From contig OMZI01000013.1 in NCBI GenBank assembly GCA_900315485.1, positions 1-57,540 of the forward strand: a stretch of 57,540 nt of DNA. Reading direction: 5' to 3'. The stretch is from an uncultured Eubacteriales bacterium. GTDB taxonomy: Bacteria > Bacillota > Clostridia > Peptostreptococcales > Anaerovoracaceae. Below, piece by piece: positions 65-10,621 of this stretch. The first letter of the stretch is position 1; every line of letters begins with the position of its first letter. The notes under the pieces were generated by a model, which was not told the DNA's origin, searched no databases, and worked only from the letters and a program-made list of their open reading frames with translations. The position numbers and the translations under genes are program-made.

Positions 65-158
65 CCGCAGGGAACAGAATATCGTGCAGAGAAAACCCCG
101 GAGATCCGTGGTGTGCTACCCGTCAAGAGGACAGTGAAAAATAACAAGTGACTGGATA

Positions 159-188
159 CCGTCAGCTGATGAATGAATCAGCTGACGG
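159..188. terminator. hairpin downstream of the IS3 remnant
   Basis: Two perfect 11-base arms (159-169 CCGTCAGCTGA and 178-188 TCAGCTGACGG) enclose an 8-base loop, directly after the stop of the minus-strand transposase fragment. No long T-run follows, so it may be a weak terminator or a subterminal structure of the insertion sequence. Confidence 0.5.
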
Positions 189-194
189 TTCTCT

Positions 195-424
195 TTATGC
201 TGCAGCCGCGAAAGCTGCATGAAACTCCATCGGGGTCATCCGATAAAGCTTTCTCTGAATCCGTTCGCTGTTGTAGTAGGGGATATATTTCGTAATCATT
301 TCGACAAGTGTTTCCCGTGACGTAAAACGTCTTCCATAATACCTCTCACGTTTCAAAATGCCCCAGAAGCCTTCCATCGGCCCGTTGTCAATACAATGGG
401 CTACTCTGGACATTACAGCTTTGC
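195..424 (-). pseudogene. IS3-family transposase (OrfB), C-terminal remnant
   Basis: The translation carries the last third of an IS3/IS150-type integrase core: the motif SRVAHCIDNGPMEGFWGILK holds the final glutamate of the DDE triad, followed by the usual tail (YYNSERIQRKLYRMTPMEF). The first two catalytic aspartates and the helix-turn-helix partner OrfA are missing, so it cannot be active. Upstream, similarity stops at the 3' end of the ATPase gene, whose stop codon overlaps the fragment. The remnant is therefore joined to that gene through a deletion or insertion boundary near 413-425. The other end of the insertion sequence is not visible. Confidence 0.85.
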
Positions 425-1834
425 CCAAGTCTTATAAAAAGTATCCTGATTTTGTTCTCTCAAATCCCACCATTCATCTCCGGTCATCATGTTTCGTATT
501 TCCATGAGGTGCAGGTTTCGAAAGGCTCTTGGATTATCCCACATCGTCTCCCTGAACCTTCTCAGCGAGCACAGTACTATTTCGCTGTTGTAGAACTTGT
601 TTACAGGAAGAATAGCTTCCTGAATCTTTTCCCAGTCTTTCGGTCCACGTGTCGTATCGAGATCATCCCATATCTTTACAAAAAGCATCTTCTCCCCGTC
701 ACGCTGCACATAATCGAAAGTTACCTCTCCGGCTGTATAGTTAAAGTTTGACTCATCCTTGAACCTGAGAGGTAATGGATGCAGCTTATCGCTATGCTCT
801 TCGATCCATATACCGCAAAGTCTTCTAAAGAAACCAGGGAGAAATTCTTTATCAATACATGAAATGATATCATCACAGAGTTCTGCGCCTGTCTGTCCGT
901 ATTTTCTGTTCATACAGTAACGAATATAAAAGGTCATATATGAGGACTCAAGATAATATCCTCTGCGCGTTCTTCCATCTTCAGAATTTAAGTTGCCTGT
1001 CACCACAAGCCCTTCATCTATCAGTGAACGTAGATACTTGTCGCATTTGTTTGGTGCATATCCGGAGTATTCTGCAAGATCTGTGAGTTTGTGTATCCCT
1101 GTAGCCATACCATACAGGAGTGACGTATAGCTCTCTGGTGTCCGGAAAGCCTCTCTTATTATTTCTTCAGCCGGTCTTAAGAACCGTGATCCCTCTGAGT
1201 ATAACCTGAGCATGTTTTCACGCAGTGTCATATCATGATCGATCATATCAAGAAGCCCCGGTACACCATCAGTCATTGCCTGGATCCTCAAGCGATCAAG
1301 TTCACCGAAACCCGCAAAAGTCTTCGTAATCTCTCCTGCTGTGAGGCGATTCAGGCCAATGATAATATATCCGTCGTTCTCTTCCGGAGGCTTTCTGCTT
1401 GTAAGGATCACAAATACATTTCTTGATTGGTGGCGTTTAAGAAACGCTCTGAGATTTTTTATAAACCCCGGATCCATCCTTTCGAAGTCTACATCTTCAA
1501 ACACAATTGAAGCATAGTAGCGAAAGCCAAGTTTTTCATCAAGCTGAATGAAAAAATCATCCCATGTCCTGCAATTGTTGAATACTTCCGGATATCTTTG
1601 CGTGAAGATCTTCAGGGCAAGGCTATACGATACATTCCTGAACGAAAAATACAGCCCAATCTTTACCGAATCAAGATACTGGCTCATAGCAATTGTCTTA
1701 CCTGTTCCCGGAGGTCCAGTGACCACAAGCGGCCAGGTTATTCTCCAGGATGAACCTGGATCTTCAGCCTTCCCTGCTCTTTTGTACTGCCATTCATATT
1801 TGCCAAGCATCTTAGCGTAGTCTCTTGAGATCAT
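413..1834 (-). CDS. archaeal-type AAA ATPase with C-terminal DUF234-like domain
   Basis: This 473-residue protein has a Walker A motif GPPGTGKT near residues 40-47, a Walker B-like strand (ASIVFEDVDF) near 110, and a TSRKPP segment of the kind that follows strand 4 in PF01637-type ATPases. Residues about 235-310 look like a winged helix (IHKLTDLAEYSG…). The last 130 residues resemble the DUF234 region that accompanies these ATPases. Their cellular role is largely unknown; they are common on mobile and accessory DNA. The gene is divergent from rep, with a poor ribosome site (AAAGGC). Its 3' end abuts an IS3 remnant, so the extreme C-terminus may not be native. It is probably cargo or a maintenance function of the integrated element; that is inference. 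Confidence 0.75.
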   Translation of the reverse strand: MISRDYAKMLGKYEWQYKRAGKAEDPGSSWRITWPLVVTGPPGTGKTIAMSQYLDSVKIGLYFSFRNVSYSLALKIFTQRYPEVFNNCRTWDDFFIQLDEKLGFRYYASIVFEDVDFERMDPGFIKNLRAFLKRHQSRNVFVILTSRKPPEENDGYIIIGLNRLTAGEITKTFAGFGELDRLRIQAMTDGVPGLLDMIDHDMTLRENMLRLYSEGSRFLRPAEEIIREAFRTPESYTSLLYGMATGIHKLTDLAEYSGYAPNKCDKYLRSLIDEGLVVTGNLNSEDGRTRRGYYLESSYMTFYIRYCMNRKYGQTGAELCDDIISCIDKEFLPGFFRRLCGIWIEEHSDKLHPLPLRFKDESNFNYTAGEVTFDYVQRDGEKMLFVKIWDDLDTTRGPKDWEKIQEAILPVNKFYNSEIVLCSLRRFRETMWDNPRAFRNLHLMEIRNMMTGDEWWDLREQNQDTFYKTWAKL

Positions 1835-2148
1835 TATAATTGCCTTTTATTCATATCTAAAGTTGATTAAATCTCATGTTGCTACTATTTTCGCATTAAT
1901 AATGACGTTTCTCAACGCTTATTTCGAAAATCCGTTCATTATTTCTGATGCTTAAGCCCACTATTTTCAAGGTGTTGTGGTTTGCATTGATTTTTATACA
2001 AAAATATTTCTCAAAAACACCCATACATTTGGCTGACGAAATGCCCACAAGTGAAGGGGTTAGGCAAGGTACTTCATCACAACTCGTATCACTCTTTTTT
2101 ACCCTGGTGAAGTCTCTTTATATGCTGCCGGGAGAAAGGACGGAAGAA
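1835..2148. promoter_or_regulatory. divergent intergenic region between ATPase and rep
   Basis: About 310 AT-rich bases hold no convincing gene. An inverted repeat AATAATGA (1898-1905) / TCATTATT (1936-1943) sits between the divergent genes and could be an operator. Further on, TTGCAT…TATTTC-like hexamers suggest a weak rep promoter. I saw no clear iterons, so an origin here is only possible. Confidence 0.4.
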
Positions 2149-3090
2149 ATGAAGAAGATAAGAAAGACTACCATCGCATCTGTTGATGCGCTCTACAATG
2201 TCGAGTTTTCAGGGAATATCATCCCCCACACCTGGTACGGGACGATACAGACTGAGAAAGGTAAGCCGGACATGAACGCGATCGCGATACTATCCGAGAT
2301 ACTGTACTGGCACAGACCGAGAGAGTCCTGCGGAGACGGAGACTCCGGAGAGACAGTACTTGAAAAACGCTTCGCCAGTGACATGTTGCAACTCAGTTAT
2401 GGGCAACTCAACAAGAAATTCCATCTATCAAAGGCACAGTGCAGACGAGCCATGAAGAACCTTGAGCGGCTCGGGGTGATCAAGCGGCATCTTCGGGACT
2501 TAGAAACTGATGCCGGCGACAGTCTCAACAATGTGATGTTCATAGAAATGTTTTCAGACAGGCTGCTGCAGCTCACCTTCCCGGACGAAGCTACCCCTGG
2601 TACAAAAAATGTAACCAGGGTATCAAACGAAATGGATGAGGTCATCGCCTTCGATGAACCAGGTGGTATCGGAAAAGATATGACAAATACAGAGATTTCT
2701 ACAGAGATTACTAGCAAAGATTATCTACCCTATCAATCAGAGCTGGAGCGAGTCAGGGATCAGATAGACTATGGCATTCTCCTCGAAGACATGAAAACTG
2801 ACAAAGGGATCATCGATAACATCGTAGACATCATGGTCGAAATAAACATGTCCCGAAAGAAAACCCTCAACGTGAACAGTGAGACTGTAGCTGCTGATTT
2901 GGTCAAGGCACGCCTGGGATCACTCAATGCGGAGATGATCAAAACGATACTTGATCGTATAAAGAACTCTGTTGTTTCAGTCGGCAACATGAAGGCATAT
3001 CTGGTCACCATACTCTTCAACACTCCGGCAACCTATGAGGCCGAGCTGGCTATGCAGGTCAGCCGGGATATGTACGCTATTTCACATTAA
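2149..3090 (+). CDS. plasmid-type replication initiator with DUF6017-like C-terminus
   Basis: I chose the ATG at 2149 because AAAGGA lies 8 bases upstream; the open frame extends 67 codons further up without a better start. The protein is 313 residues. The N-terminal part (NIIPHTWYGTI…NAIAILSEILYWHRP, then a helix-turn-helix near QLNKKFHLSKAQCRRAMKNL) matches the winged-helix region of RepA_N-like initiators. The last 100 residues (IDYGILLEDM…IVDIMVEIN…NMKAYLVTILFNTP) match the DUF6017 tail seen on such proteins in clostridial plasmids and conjugative elements. It probably starts replication of the element in its circular form. It is followed 16 bases later by parM, consistent with one transcript. 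Confidence 0.75.
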   Translation: MKKIRKTTIASVDALYNVEFSGNIIPHTWYGTIQTEKGKPDMNAIAILSEILYWHRPRESCGDGDSGETVLEKRFASDMLQLSYGQLNKKFHLSKAQCRRAMKNLERLGVIKRHLRDLETDAGDSLNNVMFIEMFSDRLLQLTFPDEATPGTKNVTRVSNEMDEVIAFDEPGGIGKDMTNTEISTEITSKDYLPYQSELERVRDQIDYGILLEDMKTDKGIIDNIVDIMVEINMSRKKTLNVNSETVAADLVKARLGSLNAEMIKTILDRIKNSVVSVGNMKAYLVTILFNTPATYEAELAMQVSRDMYAISH

Positions 3091-3106
3091 GCAGAAAGGA
3101 AAACCT

Positions 3107-4024
3107 ATGACAGAAATCAACAACACCAAAATCATTGCGGTCGACCACGGATACGGAAACATCAAGACCGCTAACACAGTCACACCAACAGGAATAACAG
3201 CATATGACAGTGAGCCTGCTCTCGGCGGCAACATCCTTGAATATTACGGTAAGTGGTACAAAGTCGGAGAAAAGCATAAGGACTTTGTTGCAGACAAGAC
3301 AACGGACGAAGAATACTACCTTCTCACCCTTATGGCAATTGCCAGAGAACTTGGCAGAGAAAAGATCTATGAGGCTGATGTGCATCTCGTATGCGGTCTG
3401 CCACTCAAATGGGTCAGATCCCAGAGAGAAGACTTCAGTTCATATCTCACGAGAAAGAAAAAGCTTTCATTCAGGTATAACGGCAAGGACTTCCGCGTGA
3501 AGCTTACAGGCTGCACAGTGCTCCCTCAGGGCTACCCTGCTGTTGCTCAGTCAGTCGGGAAATATCAGGGTACGCATATGGTCGCAGATATCGGAAACGG
3601 AACCATGAACATCATGTATATCGTCGACAAGAAGCCGATTGAGGAGAAGTGTTGGACCGAGAAGCTTGGGACCAATGAGTGCATGATCAAGGTGCTAAAT
3701 GCTGTGATGGAAGAGACCGGCGCGAGTATCGAGCCCGCTACCGTTGAAAGAGTGCTGAGATTCGGTACAGCAGATATTCCAGAGAAATATCTCTCCATCA
3801 TACGTAAGGTCGCTGAAGAATATGCTGCTGAGATATTCTCAACTCTCAAGAAGTATGAATATAACCCGGATCTTGTAAGACTGCACATTGTCGGAGGCGG
3901 CGCAGTAATCATCAAGAACTTTGGCAAGTATGATTCCGAAAGAGTCGAGATCATAGATGATATCTGCGCCAATGCCAAAGGCTATGAGTATGTGGTTGCA
4001 CTTAGCTGGAGGAACCGCAAATGA
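3107..4024 (+). CDS. parM: actin-like plasmid segregation protein, ParM/Alp family
   Basis: The start at 3107 has AGAAAGGA six bases upstream. The 305-residue protein has the actin-fold nucleotide motifs in order: phosphate 1 (AVDHGYGNIKTA, residues 11-22), phosphate 2 (VADIGNGTMNI, 159-169) and an adenosine-loop VGGGAVII near 274. ParM-type proteins polymerise and push plasmid copies apart when bound to ParR on the centromere. The gene is followed by a small gene overlapping by ATGA, the classic parM-parR arrangement. An actin-type partition system in a chromosomally integrated element implies a circular, multi-copy or unit-copy phase. Confidence 0.85.
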   Translation: MTEINNTKIIAVDHGYGNIKTANTVTPTGITAYDSEPALGGNILEYYGKWYKVGEKHKDFVADKTTDEEYYLLTLMAIARELGREKIYEADVHLVCGLPLKWVRSQREDFSSYLTRKKKLSFRYNGKDFRVKLTGCTVLPQGYPAVAQSVGKYQGTHMVADIGNGTMNIMYIVDKKPIEEKCWTEKLGTNECMIKVLNAVMEETGASIEPATVERVLRFGTADIPEKYLSIIRKVAEEYAAEIFSTLKKYEYNPDLVRLHIVGGGAVIIKNFGKYDSERVEIIDDICANAKGYEYVVALSWRNRK

Positions 4025-4425
4025 GTAAGACAAGAACAGCCAATATACGCTTCGACATGGACAACGAGATGCACCTCAAGGCTTGGCAGCTCCTGCAGAA
4101 CAGGGATAAAAACAGATTCTCATCATACAGCCAGACAGTTATACAGGCTCTGATCGAGCTGCTGTCGGAAGAGACATGTGAATCCGTAAGGAATGCCGAA
4201 AGCATCATTACTCTATCGGATATCTCTGAAACTGTAGAGCGTGCTGCTGAAAAAGCGATTGAACGTACTCTCCCCTCTTTCCTCGCAGGCTATATGGCAT
4301 GCGCTGCAGGATTCACCCCTGAGGGCTATGCGTTCGGACAGATCACTGCCGATACTACAGCTATCGAGGAGAAAGATGAAGATGCTGCAGATGACATTGA
4401 TTTTGACTTCCTAGGGCTGAATTGA
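4021..4425 (+). CDS. ParR-like centromere-binding partner of ParM
   Basis: This 134-residue protein starts inside the parM stop (ATGA overlap). The N-terminus (KTRTANIRFDMDNEMHLKAWQLL…RFSSYSQTVIQALIELL) has the strand-helix-helix pattern of a ribbon-helix-helix DNA-binding domain. The C-terminus is acidic (EEKDEDAADDIDFDFLGLN), as in ParR proteins whose tail contacts the actin filament. Assignment rests mainly on position and architecture. The target centromere is probably one of the inverted-repeat stretches immediately downstream (4451-4545). Confidence 0.7.
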   Translation: MSKTRTANIRFDMDNEMHLKAWQLLQNRDKNRFSSYSQTVIQALIELLSEETCESVRNAESIITLSDISETVERAAEKAIERTLPSFLAGYMACAAGFTPEGYAFGQITADTTAIEEKDEDAADDIDFDFLGLN

Positions 4426-4450
4426 AGCCACAATGTGGACATGTAGGCCT

Positions 4451-4545
4451 GCTACCGATTTGGTATCAAAAGCGTAAAATGCAGCATCAAATCGGTAGCA
4501 TCGCCGCCGGGCAAGGTATCTAAATTGTACCTGGCGGTGGCAAAA
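4451..4545. repeat. inverted repeats, candidate centromere (parC-like)
   Basis: Perfect 12-base arms GCTACCGATTTG (4451-4462) and CAAATCGGTAGC (4488-4499) flank 25 bases. The element TCAAATCGG recurs at 4585-4593. A second imperfect hairpin pairs AGGTA with TACCT and CCGCC with GGCGG around 4502-4540. Position directly after parR suggests a ParR-binding site; a transcription terminator for rep-parMR is the alternative, though no T-run follows. Confidence 0.4.
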
Positions 4546-4594
4546 GGATATCAACTAAGCTGATCATTTGGTGAAAAAAAGTCCTCAAATCGGC

Positions 4595-4760
4595 CATAAA
4601 TGGCGCTAGTACGGGCCAGTACGATTGGAACAAGCACTGCAAATGATCACTCATTTGCGCTTGCTGCCGGTTGCAGCAAGCAGAGGATTTGCGCACTCAC
4701 GGTCCAAATCCAGCCTTGGTGGGTAGACCCCCAAACCCCCGATTGCTTCCCGCAAACTGA
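4595..4760. other. candidate origin of transfer (oriT) upstream of mobC
   Basis: Two perfect inverted repeats stand side by side: GCAAATGA/TCATTTGC with a TCAC loop (4639-4658) and GCTTGCTGC/GCAGCAAGC with a 5-base loop (4659-4681). ATTTGCGC is directly repeated at 4653-4660 and 4687-4694. A C-rich stretch with two runs of five Cs (about 4729-4740) follows. Adjacent perfect inverted repeats just upstream of a MobC gene are typical of oriT regions. No nic site is proven. Confidence 0.45.
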
Positions 4761-4792
4761 TAATGAAACTATCCAAGGAGGAATGGTTAATT

Positions 4793-5161
4793 ATGCGTAC
4801 AAGAAACAACAGAATATCTCTTTATCTCGATGATAAAGAGTTGGAAAGATTCAACAGAAAGTTGAAGCAGACTGGTCTAAACCGCAGCACTTACCTACGC
4901 CAGCTGATTGCTGGATACGGTCCGACACCGATGCCGGACGACAGGTTCTGGTCATATATGAACAGGATCAGTGAGCTTGCAGACAAGATCGACGAGATTG
5001 CATTCAGAATGGGCAAACCTGATGAAATAATCGAAATCCTGAAAGAGACTAAAGCGTGGAGATATCTGCGATGTGAGATCGAAAAATATTATATCGTTCC
5101 AAAGAAGATTGACACTAAACAGATTCTGAAGAGTGGCGCAAAGAACGATGAAAAGGGATAA
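4793..5161 (+). CDS. MobC-type relaxosome accessory protein
   Basis: The 122-residue protein opens with a ribbon-helix-helix signature (NRISLYLDDKELERFNRKLK…GLNRSTYLRQLI) of the small MobC family, which binds oriT and helps the relaxase open the strands. I chose ATG 4793 because AAGGAGG precedes it by 11 bases and the family usually begins with a short basic stretch. The in-frame ATG at 4763 lacks a ribosome site. MobC is normally followed by a MobA-type relaxase, but here an integrase gene follows and no relaxase is visible in the window. Confidence 0.7.
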   Translation: MRTRNNRISLYLDDKELERFNRKLKQTGLNRSTYLRQLIAGYGPTPMPDDRFWSYMNRISELADKIDEIAFRMGKPDEIIEILKETKAWRYLRCEIEKYYIVPKKIDTKQILKSGAKNDEKG

Positions 5162-5225
5162 GTCATAAACCAAACAAGAGGCCATTGTCTCAAAACAACT
5201 TCTGCGGGAAGGAGGATGACGGAGT

Positions 5226-6506
5226 ATGGCATATGCCGGCACTTTAAAAAAGAATATTGCAACTTCGTCATCCTGTTCTCAGGAAGAATTATTGCGATAT
5301 ATTCTTGAGCGTGATAATCTCTCTTTGGATGGTGTAGTTTCAGATTATATGAAAGTAAGAAAGGAGCAGATACTCGCAAATCACCCTTACACTATATTTC
5401 AAAGTAAAGATGGAAGATACCGTACATACATCAAAGATCCATCAATGAGCAGTGGGCGCCGTATGATAGCAAAATCTTCCAGAGGAAAACTGGAAGATGC
5501 TATTGTAGAACAATATAACGCAATGAGCGAAGACCTGATTTCTGCAAATACAACCTTAGCATCTCTATACCCTGACTGGATCGAGTATAAAGCATTGCAC
5601 GTTGAATACACTACCATCAACCGTGTAAAGAAAGATTGGAAAAGATACTATGAAGATGCAGCAATAGTAAGTAAACCTATCTGCAGTATCTCCAAACTCG
5701 ATCTGGATGAATGGATCCATAGGATGATCAAAAAATATGATATGGATTATCATCAGTATGGCAATTTCTCGCTCATACTCAGACAGGAACTGGACTATGC
5801 AGTTGACCGCGGAATCATCGACTCGAACCCATTTCTCTCTGTTAGGATAGACAAGAAAAGAGTCTTGAGAGCCGAACATAAAAAGGCTGATGAAACACAG
5901 GTCTTCACTCCGGAAGAGCTTGAATTCATCTATAGATGCGCAGAGAAAGACTTTTTAGCAAATAACAGACCGAAGCACAAGCTGGTCCCCCTGGCAGTTC
6001 AGTTTCTGTTTCAGACAGGGTTGAGGCTGTGTGAGATAGCATCTTTAAGATACGAGGATATCGATGACGATGAGATCATTGTTCGCAGAATGGTTCGTTA
6101 CCCGGGCGGAGAGATCATTGATTCTACCAAAGGAACGTTCGGAGACCGAAGGGTGCCTCTAACACCGAAAGCTCTTGAACTGATCAGCATCGCCAGAAAA
6201 AAGCAAAAGGACAATGGTCAGGAAGACATGCAGTATATTTTTGTTATGGCAGGTGGCCCTATACACTTATACCTCGCAATTCAAAAGGCATTTGCAAAAT
6301 ACTGCAAGCAGCTTGATATTCAGCAAAGAGGTCCACATAAAGCAAGAAAAACCTATATATCTGAGCTTCTTGACTCCGGCATCAACATCAATACCGTTCG
6401 CTCTGTCGCCGGTCACAAAGACGAGCATACCACTTTTAACAATTATTGTTACGACCGAAAGACTAAAACCGAGCGAAATGCGCAGATAATTGCAGCTATT
6501 CAATAA
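5226..6506 (+). CDS. int: tyrosine recombinase (integrase)
   Basis: The 426-residue protein has the full catalytic set: Arg267 (TGLRLCEIASL), Lys302 (STKG), His371 and Arg374 (HKAR), His397 (AGHKDEHTT) and nucleophile Tyr407 (NNYCYD). Residues about 100-210 look like the SAM-like core-binding domain, and residues 50-95 like an AP2-type arm-binding segment. The start has AAGGAGG ten bases upstream. The gene ends 61 bases from the 3' end of tRNA-Ser, where such integrases usually insert their element. It should catalyse integration and excision of the element to its left. No separate excisionase was seen. Confidence 0.92.
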   Translation: MAYAGTLKKNIATSSSCSQEELLRYILERDNLSLDGVVSDYMKVRKEQILANHPYTIFQSKDGRYRTYIKDPSMSSGRRMIAKSSRGKLEDAIVEQYNAMSEDLISANTTLASLYPDWIEYKALHVEYTTINRVKKDWKRYYEDAAIVSKPICSISKLDLDEWIHRMIKKYDMDYHQYGNFSLILRQELDYAVDRGIIDSNPFLSVRIDKKRVLRAEHKKADETQVFTPEELEFIYRCAEKDFLANNRPKHKLVPLAVQFLFQTGLRLCEIASLRYEDIDDDEIIVRRMVRYPGGEIIDSTKGTFGDRRVPLTPKALELISIARKKQKDNGQEDMQYIFVMAGGPIHLYLAIQKAFAKYCKQLDIQQRGPHKARKTYISELLDSGININTVRSVAGHKDEHTTFNNYCYDRKTKTERNAQIIAAIQ

Positions 6507-6525
6507 GTGTAATCAGGTGTAATCA
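6507..6525 (+). repeat. short direct repeat, possible integrase arm sites
   Basis: GTGTAATCA occurs at 6507-6515 and 6517-6525, one base apart, between the integrase stop codon and the tRNA 3' end. Arm-type sites of tyrosine integrases are short direct repeats in this position. Confidence 0.35.
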
Positions 6526-6539
6526 AAGCAAAAAAGTAA

Positions 6540-6565
6540 GAATCCCTTGAAAAATCAAGGGATTC
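6540..6565 (-). terminator. Rho-independent terminator of tRNA-Ser
   Basis: Perfect 11-base arms (6540-6550 and 6555-6565) with an AAAA loop lie just past the tRNA 3' end. On the minus strand a T-run follows within a few bases (6530-6535). Confidence 0.8.
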
Positions 6566-6567
6566 GA

Positions 6568-6659
6568 TGGCGGAGAGAGGGGGATTTGAACCCCCGCGCC
6601 GGTACTACCGACCTACTGGTATTCGAAGCCAGACCCTTCAGCCACTTGGGTACCTCTCC
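6568..6659 (-). tRNA. tRNA-Ser (anticodon CGA)
   Basis: The minus strand folds into a 92-base class II tRNA with encoded CCA end: acceptor GGAGAGG paired with the CTCTCC segment, a D arm with AAGTGGCTGAAG, an anticodon loop TTCGAAT and a long variable arm (GGTCGGTAGTACC), then GTTCAAATCC. The anticodon CGA reads UCG serine codons. The top pair of the anticodon stem next to the loop is C·A (31-39), a mismatch. The 3' half is the likely attachment site of the neighbouring integrase element. Confidence 0.92.
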
Positions 6660-6763: not shown

Positions 6764-8206
6764 TTAATGCTTGCTTCTGTACTTCTCACGGAGGCGTTTG
6801 CGCGCCTCTTTCTTCTGTCTGCGCCTGCTCGCACCCTTTCTTCCTATAGTGCTCACAAGCAGCAGAAGGAGTATGAACAGTCCGATGACCTTGAGCGCAT
6901 TCATGGTTGCTTTATTGGAGATGTACAGGTATGACGGAAGCCATCCGGTCTTTATATCTTCGGATACAACCAGCTTGTGTTCGCCGATCAGCTCATCGCC
7001 CATATATACCTGGATCTTGCCTGCCTCCTGACCTTTCCTGACAGGCGCTTCGAGTTTCTCAGTCTCTATCTCAGTTCTGATCGATCTCGCCTTGTTGTCA
7101 GCAGGATATGCATATGTAGCGCCGTCTGCTATCAGGTCTACCCTGGTCTTTGCTCCGTGTCTTACCCACACTGTCTTGACATTGCTGCCCGCAGCAGGTA
7201 CGGCATACCCCGGGGTTACGCGGTGCGCGTAATCAGCAAGGATCTTGGCATCCTCTGTTCTGCCCTTTTCGCTGTCTCCGAGGATGACCATGACTTCACT
7301 GAGGCCGTCCTCTGTGAATGATGCAACCAGTCCGCAGTCGTCCTCACTCCAGGATCCCGTCTTGCCGCATGTCATGATGTCGTCATTATCGATAGCGCCA
7401 AGGAACCAGTTCTTCATCTCTCTGGCACTTGTCAGGTTGGTCGCAGGAGCCGTATATGACTTGGTGATGGAGATGTCCATCAGTTCCTTGTTCTCGAGAC
7501 ACTTTGTCGTGATGACAGCCATGTCATGAACTGTAGAATAGTGGTTCTTGTTCTGCCAGCCGTTGGCGTTGACAAAATGAGTATTCTCGCAGCCCCATTC
7601 AGCGACAGTCTTGTTCATTAAGTCGGCAAAATCAGCTTCGCTTCCTGATACTGCTTCACCGAGAGCATACGCTGCGTCGTTGCCGGATTCCATCATCGCG
7701 CCGTATACGAGGTCTATTACACGGATCTTCTCTCCAGGCTTGAGCCAGATAGTCGTTCCCGCCTTGTACTCCTGAGTTGCCTTTTCAGATACTGTCACTA
7801 CTTGTTCCTTGTCAAGATTCTTGAGTGCCAGCCAGCATGTCAGTATTTTGGTAGTGCTGTAAGGATCGATCTTCTTGTCCGCATTCTTGCTGTATACGAA
7901 CTCTCCGAGGTCAAGAGAATACAGCACAGCGCAGTCGGCCTTGATCTCAGGCGCATCTGCATTCAGGTCACCTACAGGATCGACGAGCGTGCCGCCCTTG
8001 CACTTTACGGATTCCCCTGTCGCAGTCATTCCGTGAGCATATTCAGCAGTAGTATTATCCTGAGCAGCTTTCTCTTCAGCCGCAGCCGGATATACCGTTA
8101 CGAGGCTCACCATAAGAATGAGCAGCACTGATGCAGCCGCTGCTCTTCTGATTACGTTGATTACTCTGTTTTTATTTCTTCTGTTTCTTTCCATCTGTAT
8201 CATCAC
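6764..8206 (-). CDS. dacF: D-alanyl-D-alanine carboxypeptidase (PBP5/DacF type)
   Basis: This serine-type carboxypeptidase trims the terminal D-Ala from peptidoglycan stem peptides outside the membrane. It has the three family motifs: STTK at residues 117-120, SGN at 174-176 and KTG at 282-284. An N-terminal signal anchor (about 20-43) precedes the catalytic domain. A beta-rich domain follows, then a C-terminal membrane helix (VIGLFILLLLLVSTIG) and a strongly basic tail, unlike the amphipathic anchor of classic PBP5. Start is GTG 8206 or ATG 8203; a hairpin separates it from the only good ribosome site. It is the last gene of the recJ-to-dacF run. Confidence 0.9.
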   Translation of the reverse strand: MMIQMERNRRNKNRVINVIRRAAAASVLLILMVSLVTVYPAAAEEKAAQDNTTAEYAHGMTATGESVKCKGGTLVDPVGDLNADAPEIKADCAVLYSLDLGEFVYSKNADKKIDPYSTTKILTCWLALKNLDKEQVVTVSEKATQEYKAGTTIWLKPGEKIRVIDLVYGAMMESGNDAAYALGEAVSGSEADFADLMNKTVAEWGCENTHFVNANGWQNKNHYSTVHDMAVITTKCLENKELMDISITKSYTAPATNLTSAREMKNWFLGAIDNDDIMTCGKTGSWSEDDCGLVASFTEDGLSEVMVILGDSEKGRTEDAKILADYAHRVTPGYAVPAAGSNVKTVWVRHGAKTRVDLIADGATYAYPADNKARSIRTEIETEKLEAPVRKGQEAGKIQVYMGDELIGEHKLVVSEDIKTGWLPSYLYISNKATMNALKVIGLFILLLLLVSTIGRKGASRRRQKKEARKRLREKYRSKH

Positions 8207-8235
8207 ACACCGGCGCAGCCGGTGATGCTTCTCCT
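8201..8235 (-). promoter_or_regulatory. ribosome site and start of dacF joined across a hairpin
   Basis: AGGAG (8231-8235) lies about 27 bases from the ATG at 8201-8203. In between is a 7-bp hairpin with a 3-base loop (8208-8224, CACCGGC/GCCGGTG). If folded, the effective spacing becomes about 7-10 bases, which is normal. No other Shine-Dalgarno sequence is near the start. Confidence 0.45.
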
Positions 8236-8245
8236 GATTGAATGA

Positions 8246-9205
8246 TCATGCAAGGACCAGCACCTTTATCGCCTTAGGCTCCACATCGATCCTCAGTGCT
8301 CCGGTCTCAAATATTTCGCCGTCTCCGACAAACTTCATGGTAGGTGCCAGCATTGGCTCGATCAGGATGTTCTTAGCCTGGGTATAAGATGCGATGTCCT
8401 CTACGCCCCTGATGCTGAACAGTTTTCCCGCCTTGTATTTAGGGAAAAGCGCCACGAACTTCCTTCTCGGCAGGTCCTTGATCGCAAGGAGTTCTATAAG
8501 TCCGTCATACAGGTCGGCATTCGGGCAGCTCTGCACACCGCCTCCGCAGAATCCGCCATTGGCAGCTGTCGCAAGGAGCAGCTTCCCTGTATGGAAGTTC
8601 TTTCCGTCGGCCGTTATCCTGAGTTTCTGCCCTTTCTTCCCGGCAAGGTTGGCCGCAACAGCCATAAGATACGAACCCGTTCCCGATACAAGCGGCAGCC
8701 TCTTAAGGCTGTGCGCGAGGATAGCTGTGTTGCCGTCGAATCCTATATTGATGCCGTTGGTGATGAATCTCGTCTTTTCTTCACCCTTCTCTATCCAGGA
8801 CATTCTGATGAGGTCCATCTTAGTGACCATTCCGTCAAGCTGTTCAGGCAGATTGAGGTACCTTTTGCCGCTGCCCTTATTTATTCCCAGCTGGCGGACA
8901 AAATCATTTCCGCTTCCCACAGGTACCACGCCGAGAACTGCGTTATCGTGACCGTACACGCCGTTCGCGACTTCCTGAACGGTGCCGTCTCCGCCGCAGG
9001 CGAAAATGACTATATCATCCCCGGTCATTGCCGCCTCTTCAGCAAGCAGTCCGGAAAGATATGTGGCATCTGTCTCACCTCTCGTGTAATACAGCTTGAT
9101 GTCTCTGTTAGGATTACCTTTGATGAGCTCCTCGATATCTGCAGCTATACCTCTGTCGTGTTTTCCCTGTCCCGAAGCCGGATTGACTATGAAAGCATAT
9201 TTCAT
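8246..9205 (-). CDS. diacylglycerol/lipid kinase family protein (YegS/DgkB-like)
   Basis: The 319-residue protein has the N-terminal lipid kinase fold: FIVNPASGQGK at the start and the nucleotide motif ACGGDGTVQEVANGV near residue 75, then VPVGSGNDFVRQLG. This family phosphorylates diacylglycerol or related lipids at the inner membrane face. I chose ATG 9205, since the frame-extending ATG 9229 has no ribosome site and lies inside the upstream gene, whose stop (9207-9209) it nearly touches. Tight spacing indicates cotranscription with the upstream phosphoesterase. The substrate is not determined. Confidence 0.85.
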   Translation of the reverse strand: MKYAFIVNPASGQGKHDRGIAADIEELIKGNPNRDIKLYYTRGETDATYLSGLLAEEAAMTGDDIVIFACGGDGTVQEVANGVYGHDNAVLGVVPVGSGNDFVRQLGINKGSGKRYLNLPEQLDGMVTKMDLIRMSWIEKGEEKTRFITNGINIGFDGNTAILAHSLKRLPLVSGTGSYLMAVAANLAGKKGQKLRITADGKNFHTGKLLLATAANGGFCGGGVQSCPNADLYDGLIELLAIKDLPRRKFVALFPKYKAGKLFSIRGVEDIASYTQAKNILIEPMLAPTMKFVGDGEIFETGALRIDVEPKAIKVLVLA

Positions 9206-9206
9206 T

Positions 9207-9941
9207 TTACTCTTTTTCCCTTGGTTCATCTGTACTGTCGTATATAAGTTTTGGCTTCGCTCCGAGATAGTCGAGCGCTACCAGCTGGTACTGCACGCCT
9301 CTCAGCTCACCTTTGATCCCTCTTCCGAATGCCGGGAATCCGTGCAGATGCCCGTATATGCATTTCCACACTCCGTATTCTTCAAGGAGATCTGTGAATC
9401 CTGTCTGCCGTCCTCCCGGATCTGACGGAGGATAGTGCAGGCAGGCTATTATTCTGGACTCCGGCGCCTTCGCCTTCGCTGCCTCGAGTCCGAGCCTGAG
9501 ACGCTGCAGTTCCCTTGCATATATCTTCTCATCATGCTCAGTGTATTCTTCGGATCCCGGATACGGCCATCCTCTGGAGGCCACTACCACGATCCCGCTG
9601 CAGTCCGGAACATAGCATTCATTCTGCAGGAAAACTATGTCGTCATAGAGCGAATTAAGATAGGTTATCCTGCCCCACCACAGATCGTGATTGCCCTTGG
9701 ATATTATCTTGGTGCCCGGCAGTGAGTGCAGCCAGTCAAAATCCGCGACGGCCTCCTCAAGCCTGAGTCCCCACGATATATCTCCCGGGATCAGCACAAG
9801 ATCCCCGTCTGAGATCATCTCTTCCCAGGCAGCCTTGAGCCTTTCGGCGTGGTTTTCCCATCCCTCGCCGAATTTATCCATTGGCTTGTCGATATTCTCA
9901 CTGAATGCCAGATGAAGATCTGAGATGGCAAATATCTTCAT
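9207..9941 (-). CDS. calcineurin-like metallophosphoesterase
   Basis: A 244-residue single-domain protein holding the full two-metal site in order: SDLH (residues 7-10), GDISWG (about 52), GNHD (about 80), the histidine in ACLHYPP (about 170) and GHLHG (about 198). There is no signal peptide, so it is cytosolic. Family members hydrolyse phosphodiesters or phosphomonoesters; the substrate here is unknown. It overlaps the tcdA stop by one base (TAATG), and its own stop is followed at once by the lipid kinase start. Confidence 0.85.
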   Translation of the reverse strand: MKIFAISDLHLAFSENIDKPMDKFGEGWENHAERLKAAWEEMISDGDLVLIPGDISWGLRLEEAVADFDWLHSLPGTKIISKGNHDLWWGRITYLNSLYDDIVFLQNECYVPDCSGIVVVASRGWPYPGSEEYTEHDEKIYARELQRLRLGLEAAKAKAPESRIIACLHYPPSDPGGRQTGFTDLLEEYGVWKCIYGHLHGFPAFGRGIKGELRGVQYQLVALDYLGAKPKLIYDSTDEPREKE

Positions 9942-10621
9942 TACTCTTCCCCGAACGCGATCGCTCTTATAACATACCCCGCAAGTGTCAGTCCTGCGGC
10001 CCCCGGGACGTAGCTCAGCGTGCCGAGATCCCCGTCCCTCGGTACCGGCTTCTCCTCAGAATAGACGACCGGCAGGTGTTCTATACCCCTTTCCTTAAGG
10101 CGCTTTCTCATCACTCTTGCGAGAGGACAGACGCTTGTCTTCGCAAGGTCAGCTGCCTTGAATGCTGTTTCTGTTTTGCCTGCAGCTCCCATGGCGGATA
10201 TGATGCTGACGCCGAGCTCCTTCGCCCTGCATATGAGTGCAGTCTTGGCATTGACATCATCTATGGCGTCTATGATCCAGTCATACTGCGTCAGGTCGAG
10301 GTCATCATCCTCACGGTAGAACCTCGGGAGAGCCGTTATCTCTGTGTCAGGATCTATGTCCCTCGCCCTCTCCGCCATTATCTCAGCCTTGTTCCTTCCG
10401 AGTGTGGAAGTCAGTGCGACGAGCTGGCGGTTAAGGTTGCTCGGTGCCGCTGCATCGCCGTCCATGAATGTGACATGTCCCACGCCCGCACGGACTATGG
10501 CCTCAGCGGCATATGAGCCGACTCCACCGTTTCCTATGATTATGACGCTGGCGGCTCTGAGCCTGGCAAGGCCGTCCTCACCGGTCATTTTTACAGTTCT
10601 TGAATAACGTTCATCACTCAT
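9941..10621 (-). CDS. tcdA: tRNA threonylcarbamoyladenosine dehydratase TcdA
   Basis: An E1-like ThiF/MoeB-family adenylating enzyme of 226 residues. It has the nucleotide loop IIIGNGGVGSYAAEAI, the acidic DGDAAAPSNLNRQ segment, DAIDDVNAK, and the late SVCPLARVMRKRL segment followed by VYSEEKP and the P-loop-like LGTLSYVPGAAGL that distinguish TcdA from MoeB and ThiF. It uses ATP to convert t6A37 in tRNA to cyclic ct6A. It overlaps recX by four bases (ATGA). Confidence 0.88.
   Translation of the reverse strand: MSDERYSRTVKMTGEDGLARLRAASVIIIGNGGVGSYAAEAIVRAGVGHVTFMDGDAAAPSNLNRQLVALTSTLGRNKAEIMAERARDIDPDTEITALPRFYREDDDLDLTQYDWIIDAIDDVNAKTALICRAKELGVSIISAMGAAGKTETAFKAADLAKTSVCPLARVMRKRLKERGIEHLPVVYSEEKPVPRDGDLGTLSYVPGAAGLTLAGYVIRAIAFGEE

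Follow-up and report, generated by a model that had tools for sequence, protein, structure and literature searches.

A putative trans-mobilized integrative element with partition genes and no detected relaxase at tRNA-Ser(CGA) of an uncultured Anaerovoracaceae bacterium

Here, we report an apparent integrative element in the 3' end of tRNA-Ser(CGA) on a 57,540-nucleotide stretch of DNA (the window; NCBI GenBank assembly GCA_900315485.1, contig OMZI01000013.1, positions 1 to 57,540) from an uncultured rumen bacterium (Eubacteriales, Anaerovoracaceae). The element has its own partition genes, keeps mobC and a region resembling an origin of transfer (oriT), and was found without a relaxase gene; we consider it probable (about 0.8) that it is mobilized in trans, in the manner of elements called "iOriT" or mobilizable genomic islands (MGIs). 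This reading draws on mobC neighborhoods in related genomes, on an oriT-like sequence common to relaxase loci of the same genome, and on near-identical copies of the element within diverged surroundings.

Gene order, the missing relaxase, and the oriT-like region

The genes that a sequence-only reading of the window had named were all found, in the order that it gave, i.e., a Rep-like DUF6017 protein, ParM, a ParR-like protein, MobC, a tyrosine integrase, and then tRNA-Ser(CGA); position 413, at which its stretch of interest began, proved to be the end of an ATPase gene and not of rep. Base 1 of the window is also base 1 of contig C13, in a draft assembly that comprises 2.52 Mb on 59 contigs and is 85.6% complete, and the left end of the element is therefore unreadable. 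Features are listed by window position (contigs of the same genome are given as C numbers, those of relatives as genome:contig).

92 to 428, minus strand: IS3-family insertion sequence (IS) remnant, with the C-terminal 77 aa of a transposase at 195-428 (rve_2, 2e-15; transpos_IS3, 6e-21)
413 to 1834, minus strand: 473-aa ATPase, role unassigned (weak AAA_22/AAA_16 matches, under the Pfam cut-off)
2152 to 3090, plus strand: Rep-like protein, DUF6017 (77.9 bits versus a cut-off of 27; PHROG replication initiation, 1e-9)
3107 to 4024, plus strand: ParM-type actin-like partition ATPase (ALP_N, 53.8 bits versus 26.3; PHROG partition protein, 4e-35)
4021 to 4425, plus strand: ParR-like open reading frame (ORF), from position and conservation (no Pfam family match)
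4450 to 4537, no strand: candidate centromere parC, proposed from a pair of hairpins and a direct repeat that includes GGTATC (4462-4476, 4515-4529; z -5.0)
4630 to 4739, plus strand: oriT-like region, two half-sites and a conserved TGGTGG..CCCCC segment (sequence pattern upstream of mobC)
4763 to 5161, plus strand: MobC/NikA-like ribbon-helix-helix relaxosome accessory protein (NikA-like, 32.7 bits versus 27; RHH_1)
5226 to 6506, plus strand: tyrosine integrase (Phage_integrase, 68.8 bits versus 27.1)
6507 to 6525, plus strand: pair of GTGTAATCA repeats, presumably arm sites for the integrase (also found flanking the C29 core)
6540 to 6565, minus strand: presumed tRNA-Ser terminator, a perfect 11-bp hairpin followed by a T run, carried by the element
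6566 to 6591, no strand: attachment core, the tRNA-Ser 3' end (second copy at C29:10091-10116)
6568 to 6659, minus strand: tRNA-Ser(CGA), the integration target

As the sequence-only reading had stated, no relaxase was found in the 57.5-kb window (tblastn with two MobP-type queries, one MobA/MobL query, and one other, which we take to be MobV-like; no match at E ≤ 0.01), although one of another family might escape these queries. MobC relatives occur in 18 of 36 genomes (37 places), and mobC neighborhoods were examined at 27 places (23 of the 37 plus four found later). At 23 of the 27, mobC is immediately followed by the start of a MobP-type relaxase gene (at three of these, the sequence downstream of mobC is limited to 235, 505, and 566 bp). 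Pfam confirmed PF03432 in three of the relaxases, namely those of C17, of G015:C16, and of the C29 neighbor in G016. The four places with no relaxase after mobC are three copies of the window's element and one element in G068. A relaxase to the left of the window, which the sequence-only reading had allowed for, is unlikely as the element's own, because the gene normally follows mobC directly and the integrase occupies that place here.

The oriT pattern upstream of mobC consists of CAAGCA plus CTGC, GAGG, or GAGC, an inverted repeat, and then TGGTGG..CCCCCARACCCC. Its half-site is present at all 27 mobC places and a slightly loosened full pattern at 23. The strict pattern gave 28 exact matches in 16 of 36 genomes, against 0 for a reversed control pattern, and was absent from 200 simple shuffles of the window; IMG/VR held no exact match. 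A relaxase lies 316 to 456 bp downstream of 23 of the 28 matches, 3 have <250 bp of DNA left, and the 2 without a relaxase in 1,500 bp are those of the window and G016. Judged by position and architecture, region 4630-4739 is oriT-like, and the element seems to have lost its own relaxase with oriT kept. Its half-sites, each with its own inverted repeat, are CAAGCACTGC at 4631 and CAAGCAGAGG at 4677; a 46-bp segment (4631-4676), found in the window and in G016, adds CAAGCACTGC as a second half-site.

Within the same genome, the oriT pattern was found on C13 (the window), C17, and C23, and the C17 and C23 matches adjoin MobP-type relaxase ORFs (447 and 446 aa, respectively). The CAAGCACTGC and GAGG-type half-sites of the window match the variants at C23 and C17, so that with the 46-bp segment the region would carry half-site variants of both. 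Contig C42 encodes two coupling proteins and one TraG P-loop protein, the latter presumably VirB4-like. The mobilization by helper machinery that had been proposed from sequence thus gains indirect support from a conserved oriT-like sequence common to the C17 and C23 relaxase loci. A more far-reaching idea, which we hold only tentatively, is a relaxase-less lineage that keeps its partition genes and exchanges one integrase for another as the tRNA target changes (tRNA-Val in G068 and tRNA-Ser here), its composite oriT possibly accepting either helper (C17 or C23).

ParM is 58% identical to that of a 518-kb Monoglobus replicon, and solved ParM chains match it at 7e-7; in IMG/VR, no relative of it was confirmed. 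ParM relatives occur in 18 of 47 genomes. Among 18 fetched loci, 10 have the order parM, parR, oriT, mobC, relaxase (one with parM in two pieces), 2 have a relaxase with some of those genes undetected, 2 have no relaxase (G067:C57 and G068:C24), and 4 end too soon. A tree of 17 ParM sequences places those of the window, G016, and G068 in a clade of their own (support, 0.999) with no relaxase seen; the remaining loci in the tree have one, except three at which the contig ends. The G068 element has a different integrase, lies near tRNA-Val, and has a mobC 30% identical to that of the window, and its lack of a relaxase is less certain because the contig ends 2.3 kb after mobC. The ParR-like ORF was aligned with 9 homologues adjoining parM (structure model poor; mean predicted local distance difference test [pLDDT], 51). 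For the Rep-like protein, the listed ORF opens at 1948, and relatives have homologues beside relaxases; its structure model is also poor (mean pLDDT, 60), with weak winged-helix matches, initiator chains 4pt7 and 5kbj among them and none at E ≤ 0.001.

G+C content is 44.2% over 429-6506 versus 50.9% over 6660-57540. The unassigned ATPase has a 46%-identical homologue at the corresponding place of a relaxase-bearing element (G016:C80). A repeated stretch at about 92-148 resembles an IS end and recurs at the end of C23; C13 breaks just beyond it. A PADLOC search with six element proteins gave no match at E ≤ 0.01, a DNA search against plasmids gave a sole match of 58 bp, in ParM, and a scan of named genomes with Rep gave a sole match in RUG13350, a metagenome-assembled uncultured Clostridiales bacterium and the closest named relative found.

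Attachment site and probable tandem neighbor

The integrase abuts tRNA-Ser, as read earlier, with its stop codon 61 bp from the tRNA 3' end and a perfect 11-bp hairpin in between, which should serve as the terminator of the tRNA. A second attachment core, expected of an integrated element, was found as an exact 26-bp copy of the tRNA 3' end on another contig (C29:10091-10116). By its sequence features, i.e., an integrase beside the target and a duplicated core, this is an integrative element at a tRNA site, its cores lying on the separate contigs C13 and C29.

Two exact GTGTAATCA copies and a third close one stand beside the C29 core, and two exact copies on C29 were reached in 0 of 200 shuffles. 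When eight integrase ends were compared, GTGTAATCA was seen only at that of the window, GTGTATCCA at four (C29, G006, G020, and G001), GTGTAGTCA at two (G012 and G016:C5), and no clear repeat at one (G008:C24). Across 20 fetched loci (328 kb), GTGTAATCA was found five times, four of them in the G016 copies of the window's integrase end and of the C29 core. Because GTGTAATCA stands at the C29 core and at the integrase end of the window, and GTGTATCCA at the C29 integrase, the C29 core appears to mark the left end of an element that uses the window's integrase. G008:C37 also has a left end of this type (90% identity over 102 bp), and the pattern occurs in only 3 of 36 genomes (this genome, G016, and G008). 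On G008:C37 (606-17526), three core copies lie at 606, 15735, and 17504; the 15.1 kb between the first two holds a 3,814-aa ORF and a truncated integrase, and there is no tRNA beyond the integrase-end core, which suggests an array of elements.

The C29 core is located between the GTGTAATCA repeats and a second, relaxase-bearing element, so that the window's element and this neighbor probably sit in tandem; because C29 and C13 are unjoined in the assembly, we infer this arrangement. To the left of the core in window orientation, the neighbor comprises an integrase and a relaxase, at the start of which the contig ends; the relaxase is split by a stop in this genome, and it is intact and preceded by mobC on the longer G016 contig. 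In G001, this neighbor itself immediately adjoins tRNA-Ser (96% identity over 3,169 bp, followed by the core and the tRNA end, where 56 bp, core included, are identical to the window and the contig stops). The simplest history would be that the window's element inserted between the neighbor and the tRNA. A search to the left, which the sequence-only reading had advised, thus did lead to a relaxase, that of the presumed tandem neighbor; as cognate helper this relaxase is not favored, its MobC (on G016:C55) being at most weakly similar to that of the window and the oriT pattern being absent from that contig, which includes 573 bp upstream of the neighbor's mobC.

Within C29:1-10090, on the element side of the presumed left end, are a cluster for sugar uptake and the remnant of an IS. 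This cluster (malto-oligosaccharide uptake plus malQ, C29 532-9335) lies 0.8 kb inside the core, and among the loci read it stands beside an attachment core only in this genome and in G016. Its malQ is 99 to 100% identical in 11 of 36 genomes (this one included), and dacA proteins of the genus are often only ~50% identical. The cluster may be cargo; it was not accepted as proven cargo, since other neighbors were read in relatives and homology ends at about C29:9335.

Nineteen tRNA-Ser(CGA) loci were fetched from 18 related genomes, a subset of the genomes with matches; 3 contigs end within 120 bp of tRNA-Ser, leaving 16 usable loci. The sequence-only reading had called for sites without the element in relatives, and 6 of the 16 have no recombinase detectable with the window's integrase as the query. 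A related integrase lies within 1.5 kb at 6 others, another tyrosine recombinase (24 to 25% identity) at 2, and remnants at 2 (G022 and G030). Integrases related to that of the window (E ≤ 1e-40) were found in 24 of 60 genomes searched (its own included), all of its own genus. Those on G000:C18 and G006:C28 are near AAA-type ATPases and relaxases that we take to be MobV-like, and one integrase family appears to serve several replication and mobilization modules. The G016 assembly has a second tRNA-Ser(CGA)/dacA locus with another integrase (G016:C5), possibly a contamination. On G030:C5 (6687-8984), two cores at tRNA-Ser are separated by 2.27 kb; the locus has a single 581-aa ORF, gave no integrase match, and resembles a decayed cis-mobilizable element (CIME).

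Recent transfer, proposed mechanism, and alternatives

Three species-level genomes carry near-identical copies of the element at tRNA-Ser, and their flanks have diverged. The G016 copy differs from the window at 1 of 6,253 aligned bases in 315-6567, and 35 of 1,394 differ beyond the tRNA. The G067 contig starts at window position 3430 and has 2 substitutions up to the tRNA (~3.1 kb), and its flank (6768-9999) is 86.6% identical to the window, the identity step being at the tRNA on one contig. Since the element is near identical and the flank diverged, with the step at the tRNA, these comparisons indicate recent movement between species-level genomes; the mobC-integrase junction is also present in G067, so what moved would be the form without a relaxase. 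The near-identical copies suggest continued movement by means of a relaxase lent by a helper. The G067 copy lacks the 46 bp (4631-4676) of the oriT region.

In general, tyrosine integrases act by recombination at tRNA ends, proteins of the MobC type help relaxases, and ParM filaments with ParR segregate low-copy DNA. For this element, we infer excision, helper use, replication, and partition as follows. The integrase would recombine the 26-bp tRNA end, restoring the tRNA gene and bringing its terminator. On excision, the MobP relaxase of another element would nick the oriT-like region (4630-4739), and a helper type IV system would carry the element to the next cell, where it would re-enter tRNA-Ser. 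In a putative stable extrachromosomal phase, as suggested in the sequence-only reading, Rep and ParM-ParR would prevent loss of the excised circle.

Several points weigh against this account. The helper loci on C17 and C23 were not observed linked to a type IV system, a search of C42:1-60000 gave no MobP relaxase of their kind, and no complete helper locus was seen; nor was a circular form or attP junction seen in the draft contigs analyzed. The left end is deduced from a separate contig (C29). Two GTGTAATCA copies were reached in 5 of 100 shuffles of the 57.5-kb window, which makes the window count weak by itself, and for a core-to-core segment on G008:C37 the repeat is GTGTAATCA beside the left core but GTGTAGTCA beside the integrase, so GTGTAATCA is no strict label of one element. 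A 20-bp insertion lies within parM of the G067 copy, so that not all copies have intact partition genes; ParR and Rep, moreover, are assigned from context and weak matches. Chimeric assembly of the draft genomes at shared sequence could mimic the G067 junction, and transduction or transformation could also have moved the element.

The strongest alternative, which we regard as a minor one, is a decayed integrative and mobilizable element (IME) that lost its relaxase and is stuck or is carried only in cis, in a composite with its tandem neighbor (CIME-like accretion). The probable tandem with a relaxase-bearing element, the disrupted parM of G067, and the remnants at similar sites of the genus (as in G030, with its two close cores and no integrase match) would fit it. 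However, the window has intact ORFs for the integrase, MobC, ParM, and the ParR-like protein along with a full oriT pattern, and decay does not sit well with near-identical copies at tRNA-Ser in three species-level genomes whose flanks diverged. Moreover, the ParM clade without a seen relaxase reaches G068 (tRNA-Val, other integrase), so the relaxase-less state may have persisted.

An ordinary self-sufficient IME, with its relaxase encoded in the unseen left part, appears improbable. That part is unassembled, and relaxases are present in the C29 neighbor and on C41, but the cognate gene directly follows mobC in 23 of 27 places, and relaxase queries match C29 only on the far side of the core, not in C29:1-10090. 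Least credible is a former plasmid, integrated and immobile, its near-identity due to very recent common descent or assembly error: rep and par genes are as on plasmids and the assemblies are drafts (G016 matches a metagenome-assembled record), but in G067 the same-contig flank diverges by 13%, against 2 substitutions in the element, with the step at the tRNA.

Relation to known systems and significance

Topical searches of open-licence literature (not by sequence) gave no recognizable description of this element. Its plan, on the reading of mobilization in trans, fits iOriT, the name given to an oriT-only integrative class (PMC11389934); IMEs that lack a relaxase, and IMEs accreted in tandem, have also been described (PMC5704250). 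In iOriT elements or relaxase-less IMEs (MGIs), as predicted for this element, an integrase and oriT come without a relaxase, and another element supplies both the relaxase and the mating apparatus (PMC11389934, PMC5704250). Among the relaxase-less elements tabulated in PMC5704250, MGIVchHai6 and MGIVmi1 have one accessory factor, as the window's element has MobC. The relaxase-less entries consulted there are proteobacterial islands or two small Firmicutes elements with a DDE transposase (MTnSag1 and tISCpe8) (PMC5704250), whereas this one is from Clostridia and has a tyrosine integrase together with MobC, Rep-like, and ParMR genes, its helper being predicted.

The SGI1 family is alike in its tyrosine recombinase, its own replication gene, and a relaxase entry of "None" in the table, and differs in its IncA/C helpers, mating-pore genes, and integration at trmE (PMC6414798, PMC5704250). 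SXT/R391 integrative and conjugative elements (ICEs) with srpMRC are integrated elements with a ParM-type partition locus that stabilizes them, so partition in an integrated element has precedent; they are self-transmissible with their own relaxase (PMC4489591), whereas no relaxase or type IV genes were detected in the window's element, the partition role of which is predicted. No type IV secretion genes, an ICE trait, were seen among the element genes within the window. The integrase ORF is intact, unlike that of a CIME, which has lost its integrase and kept its att sites. MobP IMEs of the same genus (e.g., G015:C16 and G003:C17) have the same order of ParM, ParR, oriT, and MobC but differ in the relaxase after mobC and, where seen, in another integrase.

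Genomic islands without recognizable transfer genes are common, and their transfer route is often unknown. Here, relaxase-bearing sisters, relaxase-less copies with diverged flanks, and likely helper relaxases occur in one genus and partly in one genome, so that who moves whom is testable with few defined sequences. The element also raises the question of whether partition genes compensate for lost relaxase-driven replication.

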